Of a stretch of DNA of 64,000 bases, positions 15,713-21,947 are shown piece by piece. The notes under the pieces were generated by a model, which was not told where the DNA came from, did no database searches, and saw only the letters and a list, made by a program, of their open reading frames with translations. Source of the DNA: Nitrosopumilus sp. b3 (GTDB lineage Archaea; Thermoproteota; Nitrososphaeria; Nitrososphaerales; Nitrosopumilaceae); NCBI RefSeq assembly GCF_014078525.1, contig NZ_MU078696.1, positions 409,345-473,344 on the forward strand, given 5' to 3'. The position numbers were made by a program, and so were the translations under genes. Numbering within the stretch: position 1 is the first letter of the stretch; each line of letters opens with the position of its first letter.

Positions 15713-16342
15713 ATGGGACAATGGTTATCGTGGATAAAATCCAATGAAAAAGAACTATTAACAATTCTAGATAATTTAGCAAAAAAGGCAGTTGAGACAT
15801 CTGAAGCCGTAGTTGTCTTACTATCTGATCTAAAAAATATTGAGCAGCATCAAAAAATTCACAGACTTGAAACTGAGGCTGATCAATTAACTCGTGATAT
15901 TTTCGCAGAATTAAACAAGACTTTCATCACTCCACTTGATCGTGAGGATATGCAGAGAATAGCCTCAAAAATCGATGATGTCATTGATTTCATGGATGGC
16001 ATTGCAGCAAGACTTTACAGCTATCAAATTACTGAAACTCCTCCATATTGTCTAAAAATGGCTGATGATCTTGTAAAGGCTACAAAAGAAGTTCAGTACA
16101 TGATTTCAAAATTACAGAAAATAAAAAATCCCAAAGACATGATCGAGCATTGCAGAAACACCAGTGATATTGAACACGCAGTTGATGACTTGTATAGAGA
16201 TGCAATAAAAGAACTGTTTGAATCTAGTGATGCAATTAAAATCATCAAACTCAAAGATATCTATGAAACAATGGAGACAGCGTCAGATAGATGTGTAGAT
16301 GTTGCCGATGTTATCGAAGATATTGTTTTAAAATATACTTGA
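15713..16342 (+). CDS. DUF47 / PhoU-like phosphate transport accessory protein
   Basis: 209 residues, all-helical. The family's metal-binding acidic motifs are visible: EQHQKIHRLETEADQLTRD near 44-62, and IDDVIDFMDGIAARLYSY near 84-101. The C-terminal helix ends in ETASDRCVDVADVIEDIV. DUF47 proteins accompany PiT permeases and are thought to control them, in parallel with PhoU. The PiT gene follows after 9 nt, so the two are co-transcribed. Confidence 0.88.
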   Translation: MGQWLSWIKSNEKELLTILDNLAKKAVETSEAVVVLLSDLKNIEQHQKIHRLETEADQLTRDIFAELNKTFITPLDREDMQRIASKIDDVIDFMDGIAARLYSYQITETPPYCLKMADDLVKATKEVQYMISKLQKIKNPKDMIEHCRNTSDIEHAVDDLYRDAIKELFESSDAIKIIKLKDIYETMETASDRCVDVADVIEDIVLKYT

Positions 16343-16351
16343 GATGATTAA

Positions 16352-17338
16352 ATGTTAGAGATAGCAATAGGTGCAATAATTGTAGCCCTAATCTTTGATT
16401 TTGTAAATGGATTCAATGATTCAGCAAATTCTGTTGCCACTGTTATTGGAACCCGTGTGTTAAAACCCATTCAAGCAGTAGGGTTATCTGCTTTAATGAA
16501 TTTCGTTGGACCATTTGTTTTTGGTGTAGCAGTAGCCACAACCATTGCAAAAGGAATAGTCAGTCCTGATGATATTACTGTCTATATGATAGTAGGTGGA
16601 CTATCTGGTGCAATTACATGGAGTACTCTATGTACATATTTTGGGTTGCCAATTTCAAACAGCCATTCTTTAATTGGTGGTATAATGGGTGCAGGCATTG
16701 CAGGATTGGGATTTGAAAAATTAGTTTTAGGCGGACTAACCAAAGTGTTTGCAGGAATTGTTATTGCACCAATAGGTGGAATAATTTTTGGTGCTCTTCT
16801 AACAACTGCGATAATTACAGTTTTTGCAAGTAAAAAACCAGGACCTGTAAACAAAACTTTTGGTAGATTGCAAATTATATCTTCAGCTTGGTTTGCCTTA
16901 ACTCATGGTGCCAATGATGGACAAAAAACTATGGGAATTATTGTATTGATTTTATTTTCAGCAGGAATGATTCCAAATCTTGAAATGCCCTTATGGGTAA
17001 TTTTTGCTGCGGCAACTGCTATGGGATTAGGTACTTTCTTTGGTGGGTACAAAGTAATCAAAACATTAGGAGTAAAAATTACAAAACTCAAACCATACCA
17101 AGGATTTGCAGCAGAAACTGGTGGAGGCCTAATGTTGGCAATATTTGCAGTATTTGGAATTCCTGCTAGTACTACTCATGCAATTACAGGAACTATAATG
17201 GGTTCAGGTGCTGCCCGTAGAAAACGTGCTGTACGATGGAAGGTAAGTAGACAAATTGTATTTTCTTGGGTAATCACCATTCCTGGAGCTGCCTTGTTTG
17301 GAATCGGATTTACCTCCCTTATTGATCTATTTGTGTGA
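16352..17338 (+). CDS. pit: PiT-family inorganic phosphate transporter
   Basis: 328 residues, about ten membrane helices. Both halves of the inverted duplication are readable, each with its signature: DFVNGFNDSANSVAT at about 11-25 and ALTHGANDGQKTMG at about 182-195. GLPISNSHSLIGG and GIPASTTHAITGT form the matching pore repeats. It imports phosphate, probably with H+ or Na+. It lies directly after its DUF47 partner. Confidence 0.93.
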   Translation: MLEIAIGAIIVALIFDFVNGFNDSANSVATVIGTRVLKPIQAVGLSALMNFVGPFVFGVAVATTIAKGIVSPDDITVYMIVGGLSGAITWSTLCTYFGLPISNSHSLIGGIMGAGIAGLGFEKLVLGGLTKVFAGIVIAPIGGIIFGALLTTAIITVFASKKPGPVNKTFGRLQIISSAWFALTHGANDGQKTMGIIVLILFSAGMIPNLEMPLWVIFAAATAMGLGTFFGGYKVIKTLGVKITKLKPYQGFAAETGGGLMLAIFAVFGIPASTTHAITGTIMGSGAARRKRAVRWKVSRQIVFSWVITIPGAALFGIGFTSLIDLFV

Positions 17339-17389: not shown

Positions 17390-18475
17390 ATGGATATTTT
17401 ACAACTAATTCAAGCTAATCTTCTTACTCCAATCATTTTATTTTTCTTATTTGGAATTATTGCAGCAAGAATAAAATCTGATTTGAAAATGCCTGAGGCA
17501 ATTTCAGAATTTTTACCAATCTATCTTCTAGCTGCAATTGGACTTCATGGTGGAATAGAGATGAGAAATACAGGGTTTGAAAATATGTTGATTCCAATGT
17601 TGGTTGCAATTGGTCTTTCTTTGCTGTTTACATTAAATCATTATCAAATTTTACGAAGACTTGGGAAGTTCAATCTTTTTGATTCTTATGCTTTAGCATC
17701 TACTTATGGTGCAGTTGGTGCAGTTCATTTCTCTGTTGGTTTATCTTTTTTAAAAAATCAAGGAGTTACTTCGGAAGGATATATTGCAGCAATTCTTGCA
17801 GTGCTAGAACCACTTGCGTTTATTTTAGCAATATTTATGACAAATATGGCAGTATCAAAACAAATCCACAAGAAAAAACAGTCTTTTTCAGATGATGACT
17901 CTACGGATATTGACATTGGATTAAACCAAACAAAAACAAAACTCTCTAAAGTATTACACGAGTCTATTACTGGAAAAGCAATTGTAATTTTACTTGGTAG
18001 TATTGTAATTGGCTACATAATTGGCGAGGATGGTTTTCAATCAATCAAGATTGTATTTGATGATATGTTTACTGGAGCAATTGTAATTTTTATGATTGAA
18101 ATGGGAATAATTGCTGGCCAACGACTTGATGATATTAAAAAAGTAGGCATTTTTCTTACATCCTTTGCAATTATCATGCCCTTATTCAATGGAATAGTTG
18201 GAGTTCTAGTCTCAACTGCACTGGGATTAAGCATAGGAGGTGCAGTCATGTTTGGATTGCTTATGGCTAGTGCTTCATTTATTGCAGCACCTGCAGTTTT
18301 GCGTCATGCAATTCCCGAAGCAAAACCCAGTCTGTACATTACATCTGCCTTGGGCATAACATTCCCATTCAATATTATTGTCACATTGCCTATCTTGTTT
18401 ACAATATCCACACTTGTTCATACAGGAGAAGGAACGATAGACTTATTCAATTTCATTGCTGAGGGATTCTTGTGA
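17390..18475 (+). CDS. sbtA: SbtA-like sodium-dependent bicarbonate permease
   Basis: 361 residues with about ten membrane helices in two inverted five-helix halves joined by a polar loop (about 160-185, KQIHKKKQSFSDDDSTD). The N-terminal half has LPIYLLAAIGLHGGIEM and STYGAVGAVHFSVGL; the C-terminal half has MIEMGIIAGQRLDD and FIAAPAVLRHAIPEA. These are hallmarks of the SbtA (DUF897) family, which imports bicarbonate with Na+ in cyanobacteria. Ammonia-oxidising archaea fix bicarbonate by the hydroxypropionate/hydroxybutyrate cycle, so this fits. The stop overlaps the start of the PII-like gene by 4 nt. Confidence 0.85.
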   Translation: MDILQLIQANLLTPIILFFLFGIIAARIKSDLKMPEAISEFLPIYLLAAIGLHGGIEMRNTGFENMLIPMLVAIGLSLLFTLNHYQILRRLGKFNLFDSYALASTYGAVGAVHFSVGLSFLKNQGVTSEGYIAAILAVLEPLAFILAIFMTNMAVSKQIHKKKQSFSDDDSTDIDIGLNQTKTKLSKVLHESITGKAIVILLGSIVIGYIIGEDGFQSIKIVFDDMFTGAIVIFMIEMGIIAGQRLDDIKKVGIFLTSFAIIMPLFNGIVGVLVSTALGLSIGGAVMFGLLMASASFIAAPAVLRHAIPEAKPSLYITSALGITFPFNIIVTLPILFTISTLVHTGEGTIDLFNFIAEGFL

Positions 18476-18774
18476 AACTGTACAATGTTAAATTATTAAC
18501 AATCACTTGTGAGATCCTTGCTCAAAAAAATATCCTTGAAATTTTAGGCAAACATGACATCACTGGATATACAACCTATGAGGTAGATGGAAATGGTTCA
18601 CGTGGAATCCGTGGACAAGGATTAAAAACTGAAAAAAATGTTAAAGTTGAAGTAATTATGCGTGAAGAAAAACTACAAGACGTTGTAGAAGAAATTTCAA
18701 GAACTCTGTTTGCAAACTTTGCAATTGTTCTCTATGTTAGTGATGTTGGCGTAGTACGAACTGAAAAATTTTGA
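18472..18774 (+). CDS. sbtB: SbtB-like PII signalling protein
   Basis: 100 residues from a GTG that overlaps the sbtA stop. The ferredoxin-like PII fold is visible, with a T-loop region GYTTYEVDGNGSRGIRGQG near 32-50 and a closing strand FAIVLYVSDVGVVR. It is closer to SbtB than to GlnB, and lacks the Cys-rich C-terminal loop of some cyanobacterial SbtB proteins. In cyanobacteria SbtB binds adenine nucleotides and blocks SbtA. Translational coupling to sbtA supports the same role here. Confidence 0.82.
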   Translation: MKLYNVKLLTITCEILAQKNILEILGKHDITGYTTYEVDGNGSRGIRGQGLKTEKNVKVEVIMREEKLQDVVEEISRTLFANFAIVLYVSDVGVVRTEKF

Positions 18775-18801: not shown

Positions 18802-19179
18802 TCATTTCTTTGACCATTTTCTCATCCATTCAAGTAAATTAGAAATTGATTCAATCAATTCTTGTCCTTTGTTTGTTAATTTGTATTCAACACGTGGAGG
18901 TACTTCTGCATACATTTGTCGTTCTAGTATTCCTTCAGAAACAAGTTCTGATAATCTAGTTGATAATGTTTTACTGCTAATTCCTTTGAGAGATTCTTTG
19001 AATTGTTTGTGTCTTACAGGTTCTGTTGTACAGCACAATGGAAACAAAATTTCAAGCGTTGCTCTTTTAGTAATTAATTTTCTAATGATTGAAGTCTCTT
19101 TCAATAGTTTTGATGCATCATACCCAGTAAACTCACATTTATTTTCAATAATATGTAGTTTTTTCCCTTTAGTTTCCAT
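18802..19179 (-). CDS. HxlR-family winged-helix regulator (probable arsenic regulator)
   Basis: 125 residues with the HxlR/MarR-like winged helix: KQFKESLKGISSKTLSTRLS (about 58-77) holds the recognition helix and PPRVEYKLTNKGQEL (about 94-108) the wing. Many HxlR proteins sense through Cys; here Cys 15, 49 and 50 could bind As(III), with 49-50 adjacent. The gene is divergent from arsM and 63 nt away, and a palindrome lies between them. ArsR is the usual ars regulator, so an HxlR protein here would be a replacement. The arsenic role is inferred from context. Confidence 0.82.
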   Translation of the reverse strand: METKGKKLHIIENKCEFTGYDASKLLKETSIIRKLITKRATLEILFPLCCTTEPVRHKQFKESLKGISSKTLSTRLSELVSEGILERQMYAEVPPRVEYKLTNKGQELIESISNLLEWMRKWSKK

Positions 19180-19213
19180 AATTACACTAACTACAATGCT
19201 TTTCTCTTTACAA

Positions 19214-19236
19214 CTTTAATAGTTTACCTTGTAAAC
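19214..19236 (+). promoter_or_regulatory. arsM promoter with palindromic operator
   Basis: A TATA-like CTTTAAT lies about 25 nt before the arsM ATG. It is followed directly by GTTTAC-CTT-GTAAAC (19222-19236), a perfect 6-bp inverted repeat between TATA box and start codon. A protein bound there would block transcription. The HxlR regulator next door is the natural candidate. Confidence 0.55.
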
Positions 19237-19242
19237 CGTAAC

Positions 19243-20001
19243 ATGGAAAGTTCGATTAAAGACGATATTAAGAAAAGATATTCAAAGATTGTAGTATCTG
19301 GAAATACTGACTGCTGTTGCATGCCTGGTGAGTGTGATAGTGGAGATTCTCCGATAGATGTAACAAAAATGATTGGTTATGATCAAAAAGATCTTGAATC
19401 AATTCCCCAAGAAGCAATTTTGGGTGTTGGGTGTGGATCTCCAATTAACCATGCAAATCTACAAGAAGGTGAAACTGTAGTAGATTTAGGTTCAGGAGCT
19501 GGAATTGATATTTTTTTGGCAGCAAGAAAAGTGTTGAATTCTGGAAAAGCAATTGGTATTGACATGACTGATAAAATGTTGGAAAAAGCCAGAGAAAATG
19601 CATTAAAAGGAAATTTTTCTAATGTTGAATTTAAGAAGGGTGATATTGAAGAGAACATTCCATTAAATCCTAATTCTGTTGATGCTGTGATTAGTAACTG
19701 CGTCATTAATCTCACTACAAATAAAACAAATGCATTCAAAGAAGTTTTTAGAATTTTAAGAAAAAATGGCCGAATGGTTATCTCTGATTTAATCACTGAT
19801 ATCGAATTACCTTCAGGAGAAATTAATTCCGATCAATGGTGTGAGTGTATTGATGGGGCTCTTACAAAAGAAAATTATGTTTCATGCATTCAACAAGCTG
19901 GATTTAAAAAAATCGAAATATTGGAAGAAAGATCATATATAGATGGAGAAAAATTTAACAACAGGAAAATCTCTAGTCTTGTAATTAAGGCAATAAAATA
20001 A
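19243..20001 (+). CDS. arsM: Arsenite S-adenosylmethionine methyltransferase
   Basis: 252 residues. The SAM-binding motif is VVDLGSGAGIDIF (79-91). The three cysteines needed for As(III) methylation in ArsM enzymes are at 64 (GVGCGSP), 153 (SNCVINL) and 202 (WCECIDGA). A further N-terminal CCC at 24-26 and C31 form the extra As-binding cluster seen in bacterial ArsM. It methylates arsenite to mono-, di- and trimethyl forms in the cytoplasm. It is the first gene of an operon with arsC and an aquaglyceroporin. Confidence 0.93.
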   Translation: MESSIKDDIKKRYSKIVVSGNTDCCCMPGECDSGDSPIDVTKMIGYDQKDLESIPQEAILGVGCGSPINHANLQEGETVVDLGSGAGIDIFLAARKVLNSGKAIGIDMTDKMLEKARENALKGNFSNVEFKKGDIEENIPLNPNSVDAVISNCVINLTTNKTNAFKEVFRILRKNGRMVISDLITDIELPSGEINSDQWCECIDGALTKENYVSCIQQAGFKKIEILEERSYIDGEKFNNRKISSLVIKAIK

Positions 20002-20016
20002 TTTATTTTTTGAGAT

Positions 20017-20412
20017 ATGGAAAAAATTCTTTTTGTTTGTGTTGAAAATGCAGGAAGGAGTCAAATGGCTGAAGGATTTCTACGAAAATATGCCGCTAAC
20101 TTTGATGTAATGAGTGCAGGCACTCAACCCAAATCTGAACTTAATCCTAATGTAGTAAAGGTAATGGCTGAAATTGGGATTGATATAACAAATCAAAAAC
20201 CTAAAGAACTTACCCCTGAAATGATTTCTGAATCTGTTACCGTAAATATGGGTTGTATGAAAAGTGATTCTTGTCCGGCACTATTTGTAAAAGATGTGAT
20301 TGATTGGAATATATCAGATCCTAAAGGAAAAGATCTTGATCAAATTAGAGAGATTCGTGATCAAATAAAAAATGAAGTAATGAATCTAATAAAAAATTTA
20401 GAGAACAAATAA
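20017..20412 (+). CDS. arsC: Arsenate reductase, thioredoxin-coupled (LMW-PTP fold)
   Basis: 131 residues. The phosphatase-like loop CVENAGRS (Cys8 to Arg14, CX5R) starts at residue 8, and the redox pair Cys80 and Cys86 lies in GCMKSDSCPALF. This three-Cys layout matches the Staphylococcus pI258-type ArsC (Cys10, 82, 89), which reduces arsenate to arsenite with thioredoxin. WNISDPKGKDL is the conserved late Asp-Pro loop. The stop overlaps the next ATG by 1 nt. Confidence 0.92.
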   Translation: MEKILFVCVENAGRSQMAEGFLRKYAANFDVMSAGTQPKSELNPNVVKVMAEIGIDITNQKPKELTPEMISESVTVNMGCMKSDSCPALFVKDVIDWNISDPKGKDLDQIREIRDQIKNEVMNLIKNLENK

Positions 20413-21089
20413 TGTCTTATTCTAATCTACAAATCTTTACGGTTGAATTAATTGGTACTTTTATTCTTGTAATTTTTGCTACAGGTTCTATTGTATATGA
20501 TGTTCAAATTGGAGGGCCATATGGTATTTGGTTTGCGGCAGTCACGCCTTTTATTGCGTTAATCATTGGAGTTTATTCGTTTGGAAAAATATCCCTTGCA
20601 CATTTCAATCCTGCAGTAACCATCGGTTATTATATCACTGGCCACATTTCTAAAATTCAAATCATTTGGTATTTTGCAGCTGAACTAATTGGAGCGATAC
20701 TTGGTTCTTTATTTGTGATGATGTTTATTGGAGAAGAAGCAAATCTTGGAGCAAATGCGCCAAATTTTGACTATTCGATATTTTTAATTTTCCCAGTAGA
20801 AGTTTTAGCATCAGCATTGCTTATGGCAGTTATTTTTACAGTAGTGTACACAAAAGGACTCAAAGGATTCAGTGGAATTGCAATTGGTGGTATTGTGGGA
20901 TTAGATATTCTCTTTTTGGCATTTATTTCTGGCGCATCAATGAATCCTGCAAGAGCCTTGGCACCTGCCTTATTGTCTGGTGTGATGGATAATCTTTGGC
21001 TTTATTGGAGTGCACCATTTGTCGGAACAACTATTGTTGCATTTTTGTTTAGGAAAAAATTTAAGAATCAAAGAAAACAGGAATTATAG
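20412..21089 (+). CDS. aqpS: Aquaporin / aquaglyceroporin (MIP family), arsenic-cluster channel
   Basis: 225 residues, six membrane helices and the two half-helix NPA boxes: HFNPAVT (N66-A68) and MNPARALAP (N178-A180), with the conserved Arg181. MIP channels in ars operons, such as AqpS of Sinorhizobium, let arsenite leave the cell after ArsC reduction. The gene overlaps arsC by 1 nt. No ArsB or Acr3 pump is in the cluster, which supports that role; a plain water or glycerol channel remains possible. The symbol is by analogy. Confidence 0.85.
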   Translation: MSYSNLQIFTVELIGTFILVIFATGSIVYDVQIGGPYGIWFAAVTPFIALIIGVYSFGKISLAHFNPAVTIGYYITGHISKIQIIWYFAAELIGAILGSLFVMMFIGEEANLGANAPNFDYSIFLIFPVEVLASALLMAVIFTVVYTKGLKGFSGIAIGGIVGLDILFLAFISGASMNPARALAPALLSGVMDNLWLYWSAPFVGTTIVAFLFRKKFKNQRKQEL

Positions 21090-21172
21090 ACATCTATCAA
21101 CTACATAGATTACAGGTTGTTATCAAATCTAAAGACTGTCATCTTTTGTCTTTGTCTTGTGTAAAATTAATC

Positions 21173-21592
21173 ATGATATCATCAAATGTTGAACAAAATT
21201 TAGGAATTACACGCCTATGTGAGGACATTTTGGCTTCAAATGAGAGAATTTTTTTTGTGTCATCTTTGAACAAAAATGGAAGAGCAATCGAATACAAATT
21301 TCGCAATGACAGAATCGTTAAAAAAATGTCAAAAACTGAAATAGAAATGTTTTACATGCAAAGAACATTACAGACATCTCTATCCAAAGAATTTGATGAT
21401 TTGGTTGGCCCTCTAAATTTCATTATAGTTCAAAGGGAAACCTTCTTGGAATTAATTTTTCCATACTCTAAAGGATTGATGCTGATAGTATGTGATTTAG
21501 ATGTGATCCCAAATTATCTAGCAAAAAAAATATTGTTTATGTTGCGTGATTTTGATTGGGCACCAAAAAAGACTCAAGTGTATTATGCCTGA
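21173..21592 (+). CDS. Small protein, thaumarchaeal family of unknown function
   Basis: 139 residues from the ATG at 21173 (MISSNVEQNLG). An in-frame TTG upstream at 21146 would add nine residues. The alternation of strands and helices, and the sentence-like order 'self-recognition helix, RIFFVSSLNKNGRAIEYK, then FIIVQRETFLELIFPYS', recalls roadblock/LC7-type folds, which is inference only. No catalytic residues are evident. The 3' end overlaps a zinc-ribbon gene by 8 nt. Confidence 0.6.
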   Translation: MISSNVEQNLGITRLCEDILASNERIFFVSSLNKNGRAIEYKFRNDRIVKKMSKTEIEMFYMQRTLQTSLSKEFDDLVGPLNFIIVQRETFLELIFPYSKGLMLIVCDLDVIPNYLAKKILFMLRDFDWAPKKTQVYYA

Positions 21593-21752
21593 TGAATGTT
21601 GCAGAAAGTGTGGCTATTTTTTAAAAAATTTTTCCAAATGCAAAAATTGTAATACTTTATTTCAGTATGTTTGTTATCGTTGTAATCAAAAAACTTTACC
21701 ACGATACCATAATTGTAATAAAGAATATAGTCATAATTCGGTAATTATGTAA
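21585..21752 (+). CDS. Small zinc-ribbon protein (55 aa)
   Basis: The ATG at 21585 gives MPDECCRKCGYF. Cys pairs at CRKC, CKNC and CYRC (three CxxC-type knuckles), plus a late His-x-Cys (YHNCN), can bind one or two zinc ions. The start lies inside the end of the previous gene, so the two are probably co-translated. Role unknown; zinc ribbons of this kind usually bind nucleic acid or protein. Confidence 0.6.
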   Translation: MPDECCRKCGYFLKNFSKCKNCNTLFQYVCYRCNQKTLPRYHNCNKEYSHNSVIM

Positions 21753-21824: not shown

Positions 21825-21947
21825 ATGCAAAAAATCAAATGTCTAAAATGTGGAAATCATGAAACAGAAATTTTAAGACGTGGAAAATTTGCCCAAGATG
21901 TTTTATTTTGTCCTTACTGTGATGACATTTGCAATAAACTTACATGA
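21825..21947 (+). CDS. Tiny zinc-ribbon protein (40 aa)
   Basis: MQKIKCLKCGN...FCPYCDDIC. Two CxxC knuckles at Cys 6/9 and 29/32, with an extra Cys at 36. Basic in the middle (LRRGKFAQ). The gene lies alone after the zinc-ribbon gene upstream. Coding sense is supported by the Cys spacing rather than by length. Confidence 0.6.
   Translation: MQKIKCLKCGNHETEILRRGKFAQDVLFCPYCDDICNKLT

Follow-up and report, generated by a model that had tools for sequence, protein, structure and literature searches.

A putative pumpless arsenic operon of Nitrosopumilus with a NIP/AqpN-like channel and a proposed HxlR-type arsenical switch

How does an ammonia-oxidizing archaeon (AOA) dispose of arsenic when its arsenic genes come with a membrane channel in place of a pump, and with an HxlR-family protein in place of ArsR? 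The question is raised by the locus at positions 18802-21089 of the window, the whole stretch of 64,000 nucleotides of Nitrosopumilus sp. b3 DNA that was analysed. A preliminary description had reported there an arsM-arsC-MIP operon divergent from an HxlR protein with three cysteines, the MIP standing in for the pump and HxlR for the usual regulator. Open reading frames and family profiles confirm the arrangement, and the gene content bears out both substitutions. We favour the reading, with a probability of about 0.6, that this is an AqpS-type, reduce-and-leak arsenic operon without a pump, governed by an HxlR arsenical switch, in which a block of genes took the place of arsR-arsC. Nitrosopumilaceae count among the commonest microbes of the sea, a habitat where arsenate mimics scarce phosphate; if the reading is right, a family-wide drain through a channel would account for how the family manages with neither ArsB nor Acr3.

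The source genome comprises 1.79 Mb in 9 contigs and is 99.98% complete. The family assignments of HxlR, ArsM, the MIP channel and the PiT transporter are firm (Table 1). arsM and arsC are separated by 15 nt, arsC and the MIP gene overlap by 1 nt, and the divergent promoter region between hxlR and arsM measures 63 nt. The nearest MIP homologs found in a homology search are 91-92% identical and come from Nitrosopumilus genomes. HxlR and the arsM-arsC-MIP order are kept together across species, so that a chance arrangement can be set aside. PiT ends 1.46 kb from hxlR, as the preliminary description had it (about 1.5 kb upstream), and adjoins the locus in the window and in most relatives; two genomes (G109, G014) have a pst-type operon, its pst genes read by eye. 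Positions 17390-18774 hold an SbtA-type bicarbonate transporter gene (PF05982, 354 bits) and, overlapping it, a PII-like gene; the two are a candidate SbtA-SbtB carbon-uptake pair, conserved next to the ars genes in most Nitrosopumilaceae. On the other side lies an ORF of 148 aa (21146-21592) with no Pfam or NCBIfam match, which a minority of relatives also keep downstream of the MIP gene. Between the ars operon and hemL stand two very short ORFs (21546-21752 and about 21826-21945) whose CxxC pairs resemble those of zinc ribbons.

Table 1. Features of the arsenic locus and of the phosphate transport genes upstream, in positions of the window
Feature	Position	Strand	Product length	Evidence
PhoU-like DUF47 partner of PiT	15713..16342	+		PF01865, 90.3 bits
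PiT phosphate transporter, plausible arsenate entry	16352..17338	+		PF01384 (PHO4), 297 bits
hxlR	18802..19179	-	125 aa	ORF list; PF01638, 75.2 bits (gathering score 20.8)
TATA-like box ACTTTAATAG of the arsM-arsC-MIP promoter (proposed)	19213..19222	+		ACTTWAATRG in 27/27 orthologous intergenic regions, fixed spacing
Palindrome GTTTACcttGTAAAC, proposed HxlR operator	19222..19236	.		Between TATA-like box and arsM start
arsM	19243..20001	+	252 aa	NF008823, 273.9 bits (cut-off 263)
arsC	20017..20412	+	131 aa	PF01451 (LMWPc), 73.8 bits
MIP channel gene	20412..21089	+	225 aa	PF00230, 132.7 bits

ArsM passes the curated arsenite methyltransferase model, and its C64, C153 and C202 align with the three cysteines of the solved arsenic methyltransferase 4kw7. 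The same trio matches the arsenic-binding cysteines of CmArsM, which we take to be C72, C174 and C224. Judging by this score and these residues, the arsM product is an As(III) S-adenosylmethionine methyltransferase. ArsC has a low-molecular-weight phosphatase fold. LMWPc is its sole Pfam name and it falls below the NCBIfam arsC equivalog cut-offs (84.9 vs 157.6 and 82.8 vs 174.3 bits), as would suit a low-molecular-weight protein phosphatase in a cluster unrelated to arsenate. Such an identity is highly improbable: the NCBIfam arsC models score about 60 bits above the phosphatase models, the best solved matches are the arsenate reductases 3t38 and 3rh0, and the neighbours are ArsM and either ArsR or HxlR. 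Its C8-X5-R14 active site is moreover joined by distal C80 and C86, the second and third cysteines in the pattern of thioredoxin-coupled ArsC. We class the protein as ArsC-like, with a probable reductase role assigned from motif and context.

The locus has counterparts across the family. In relatives, a 99-aa ArsR-family protein is encoded between the PII gene and arsC and transcribed away from arsC; a relative of this protein is found in 13 of 15 genomes of the genus, the present one counted, which lacks it. Distinct loci with readable flanks and a recognised regulator number 94, of which 75 have ArsR, 19 HxlR and none both; many of them are close kin, and the counts are not independent. All 75 ArsR loci have arsR divergent from arsC-MIP, with arsM in none (0/75). 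The HxlR loci have hxlR divergent from arsM-arsC-MIP in 17 cases and directly divergent from arsC-MIP in two (G067, G079). Eight more arsC-MIP loci have no divergent regulator and mostly carry directly upstream a different PiT, about 60% identical to that of the window. This third type, seen in L051 (6478-8663), L067 (6584-8663), L073, L076, L077 and L078, is mostly from Nitrosarchaeum and may place phosphate uptake and arsenic reduction in one transcription unit. A MIP match is found in 85 of 85 good family genomes at E 1e-15, a threshold that also admits the paralog. Since the arsC-MIP pair and the lack of a pump extend over the family, they are not special to this strain. The pumpless arsC-MIP pairing put forward in the preliminary description is thus present here, yet it is the rule in Nitrosopumilaceae and not a peculiarity of this cluster. 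Likewise its missing ArsR holds for this genome, which has no ortholog, whereas most relatives have ArsR at this very site, exchanged here for hxlR-arsM.

The preliminary description had also called for a genome-wide look for pumps. A whole-genome profile search gave no match to SBF/Acr3 (PF01758), Acr3 (TIGR00832), ArsB (PF02040) or ArsP (PF03773), and a whole-genome search for the ArsR of the family's ars locus was likewise negative. The genome has 10 HTH_5 matches; the N-terminal arsenic-type cysteine motif is absent from the 8 of these 10 proteins that were read. An assembly gap as the cause of these absences was considered and rejected, given the completeness of the genome and the clean replacement seen in a sister genome. 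Among 121 family genomes, Acr3 occurs in one (G095), and 27, all outside this genus, encode a protein matched at the level of the ArsB superfamily; the near-absence of pumps is therefore a trait of the group. That Nitrosopumilus-related AOA have no arsenic pump is already known from a 2014 genome paper, which placed one in Nitrososphaera species only (PMC4084955). The genome-wide search covered the Acr3/SBF, ArsB and ArsP families, which leaves room for an exporter of another kind (MFS ArsJ-like, MATE ArsK-like, P-type ATPase or ABC) with the channel as an auxiliary. We find this unlikely, the MIP being the sole transporter of the operon in a group of genomes earlier reported to be pumpless.

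The channel carries two NPA motifs, at N66 and N178. Its selectivity filter was read by fixed offset from the NPA asparagines and not from a MAFFT alignment, in which the H2 column is shifted relative to AqpZ by a two-residue gap. The offset rule reproduces the published G88/S207/G216/R222 of HvNIP2;1 and also gives F43/H174/T183/R189 for E. coli AqpZ, on what we take to be its sequence and numbering. The window channel reads P46-I166-A175-R181, invariant in 54 distinct sequences; more distant members have P/H, I/V, A/G and R at the same offsets. Replacement of the water-type His at H5 together with a small residue at LE1 is the pattern of metalloid-permeable NIPs. The P-I-A-R filter resembles in this respect that of metalloid-conducting plant NIPs, with a non-His H5 and Ala at LE1, and the best solved relative of the channel is plant NIP2-1 (Lsi1, 7cjs), ahead of AqpM and AqpZ. 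The score against the NCBIfam AqpZ equivalog remains below cut-off (88.2 vs 256 bits). The earlier name aquaglyceroporin was loose, the channel not being GlpF-like. Plant NIP-II proteins (A-I-G/A-R; OsLsi1/NIP2-1) differ at H2, where the window channel has Pro and channels of other genera His; none of the plant NIPs in the comparison has this Pro. The AqpN/NIP likeness rests on the best PDB match and on a 2024 survey that placed AQPN in Nitrososphaerota (PMC11316224). On these features we propose that the channel is a NIP/AqpN-like passive exit for arsenite.

MIPs are often poly-specific (PMC10716587), and AOA aquaporins have been interpreted as osmoadaptation genes (PMC4084955). The channel could accordingly conduct mainly another small neutral solute, such as water, boric acid, H2O2, ammonia or glycerol, and lie beside arsC by accident. 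Several features make this quite unlikely. arsC and MIP stay adjacent in most loci, whichever of the two unrelated regulators is present, and in the third locus type the pair immediately follows a phosphate transporter. A second MIP of the genome (C4:493241-493900) has a different filter, H-H-A-R, and could serve housekeeping flow. Finally, the G095 cassette consists of hxlR divergent from arsM-arsC-acr3, the acr3 frame being split: a pump can thus fill the slot of the channel gene, an argument for export as the role of that slot.

How HxlR came to this locus can be traced by comparison with the sister genome G086, which is 92-93% identical in DNA to the window on both flanks. The match ends at about 18773, resumes at about 20021 within arsC at roughly 70-80%, and climbs back above 90% within the MIP gene, at about 20500. 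G086 has nothing that corresponds to the hxlR-arsM stretch and keeps arsR-arsC. In a short and poorly resolved tree, the closest neighbours of the window ArsC are two other ArsCs linked to HxlR; in the MIP tree, the window MIP is nearest to the ArsR-linked MIP of G086. These groupings indicate that hxlR-arsM-arsC was swapped in as a cassette and the resident channel kept. Alignment and trees together show that, in this lineage, the cassette replaced an ancestral arsR-arsC beside the resident channel gene. The MIP tree requires 8 changes of regulator type, and 5 changes of HxlR label are forced by well-supported branches, so that exchanges of the regulator have recurred.

Some loci depart from these simple plans. 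G059 (L143, 3858-5846) has arsR divergent from arsC-MIP at one site and hxlR divergent from arsM-arsC, with a distant ArsR (39%), at another. In L124, L125 and L155 (G091, G108), arsM lies between two different arsC genes, in the order hxlR divergent from arsC-arsM-arsC-MIP. Apparently broken arsM and hxlR copies in L156 (G073) and G085:C86 suggest decay of the cassette in some lineages.

A conserved promoter element accompanies the HxlR-type loci. In all 27 HxlR-type promoter regions the TATA-like box is followed, at fixed spacing, by the palindrome GTTTACnnnGTAAAC, exact in 19, with one mismatch in 7 and with two mismatches in 1, standing 41-42 nt from the hxlR start. The same TATA-like box and palindrome precede arsC where arsM is absent (L105, L147). 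Within one mismatch, GTTTACnnnGTAAAC is found in 0 of 63 ArsR-type promoter regions; these loci have a different conserved promoter sequence, ATCAATyTAAATTTATATAAACTAATATTTAT. The palindrome occurs once in the 1.79-Mb genome and a reversed control pattern twice; single copies are thus expected by chance, and the weight lies on the conservation of the palindrome. A site between TATA-like box and start is the typical position of an archaeal repressor. We propose GTTTACnnnGTAAAC as the HxlR operator.

HxlR has exactly three cysteines, C15, C49 and C50, all retained in the alignment of 27 of 27 distinct orthologs. Where the blocks are readable, distant orthologs from another family of the same order retain both C-F-GYD and LCC; most of these orthologs adjoin arsM. 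The predicted structure is of mediocre confidence (pLDDT 72), and residues 1-20, including C15, fall below 50. The idea that the cysteines correspond to the redox pair of HypR was rejected: HypR Cys49, by the numbering we assume, aligns with L64 and not with C49/C50. Conserved cysteines would also fit a sensor of redox state or electrophiles (quinone, aldehyde, reactive chlorine), HxlR-family sensors such as YodB and HypR acting by thiol/electrophile chemistry. The ars genes would then respond to oxidative or thiol stress. The nearest named NCBIfam models are indeed the redox factors RrpA and RrpB, with scores far under their cut-offs (55.6/185 and 44.4/175 bits), and PMC7835342 describes formaldehyde sensing by HxlR. 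A redox or electrophile sensor is nevertheless doubtful here: HxlR takes the site of ArsR, 17 of 19 HxlR loci are linked to arsM, and the alignment does not match the vicinal C49-C50 pair to HypR Cys49. The palindrome, moreover, is present only at this locus of the genome, which gives no sign of a wider stress regulon.

The replacement of ArsR by a three-cysteine HxlR together with arsM suggests an arsenic sensor of a kind not described so far. We propose HxlR as a putative thiol-based arsenical sensor and repressor. We give an even chance that it is the first known member of a class not described before: three-thiol repressors outside the ArsR family that respond to As(III) or methylarsenite, are coupled to arsM and have repeatedly displaced ArsR at the pumpless arsC-channel locus of AOA. 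A literature search found no paper joining HxlR with arsenite, and none on Thaumarchaeota with arsenite methyltransferase and aquaporin. If HxlR does sense arsenic or methylarsenite, it would represent a regulator class without match in that search. The swap of ArsR for HxlR, which has its own conserved promoter palindrome, offers a natural experiment, one operon being placed in sister genomes under regulators of two unrelated families.

The phosphate transporters beside the locus, ArsC, the channel and ArsM make the following the simplest reading, as for AqpS-ArsC of Sinorhizobium meliloti (PMC6205960). Arsenate would enter via the phosphate transporters and be reduced by ArsC to arsenite, and the NIP/AqpN-like channel would let the As(OH)3 made inside flow out downhill. 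Part of the arsenite would be methylated by ArsM, and the channel may also release methylarsenite, whose passage through aquaglyceroporins is reported (PMC1440775). HxlR would bind GTTTACnnnGTAAAC, past the TATA-like box and ahead of the arsM start, and would come off the DNA once trivalent arsenic, as As(III) or MAs(III), is captured by C15, C49 and C50. We infer the entry route, the substrate and direction of the channel and the sensing of arsenic by HxlR from these elements. The preliminary interpretation as a whole is partly supported. Were the scheme true, archaea would also offer a parallel to the proposal that plant metalloid channels arose from bacterial ars operons.

The regulators compare as follows with known ones. 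The ArsR of the Nitrosopumilaceae ars locus occupies the same site, is also divergent, small and Cys-rich and lies upstream of arsC-MIP, whereas HxlR belongs to an unrelated HTH family and has another conserved promoter sequence. With HxlR, YodB and HypR the window protein shares the winged-helix family PF01638 and the character of a small Cys-bearing DNA-binding protein. It differs from them by a longer N-terminal arm with C15, by C49-C50 at a position unused by HypR, and by its link to ars genes.

The closest known system is aqpS-arsC of S. meliloti, in which a MIP stands beside arsC instead of ArsB and the arsenite made by ArsC leaves downhill (reviewed in PMC6205960). The likeness proposed in the preliminary description is upheld in that arsC and MIP share one operon and the searched pump families are absent. 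The window operon has the arsC and MIP without ArsB or Acr3 of an AqpS-type system, and not its ArsR regulator. It further differs in being archaeal, with HxlR in that role and arsM in the operon, in the adjacent phosphate transporters and in its family-wide conservation. Its channel is NIP/AqpN-like by best solved match. Bacterial ars operons also encode channels, with 18 MIPs among 717 transporters in 685 operons (PMC4435449). There they are a small minority, whereas in Nitrosopumilaceae the channel is the rule and the pump the rare exception.
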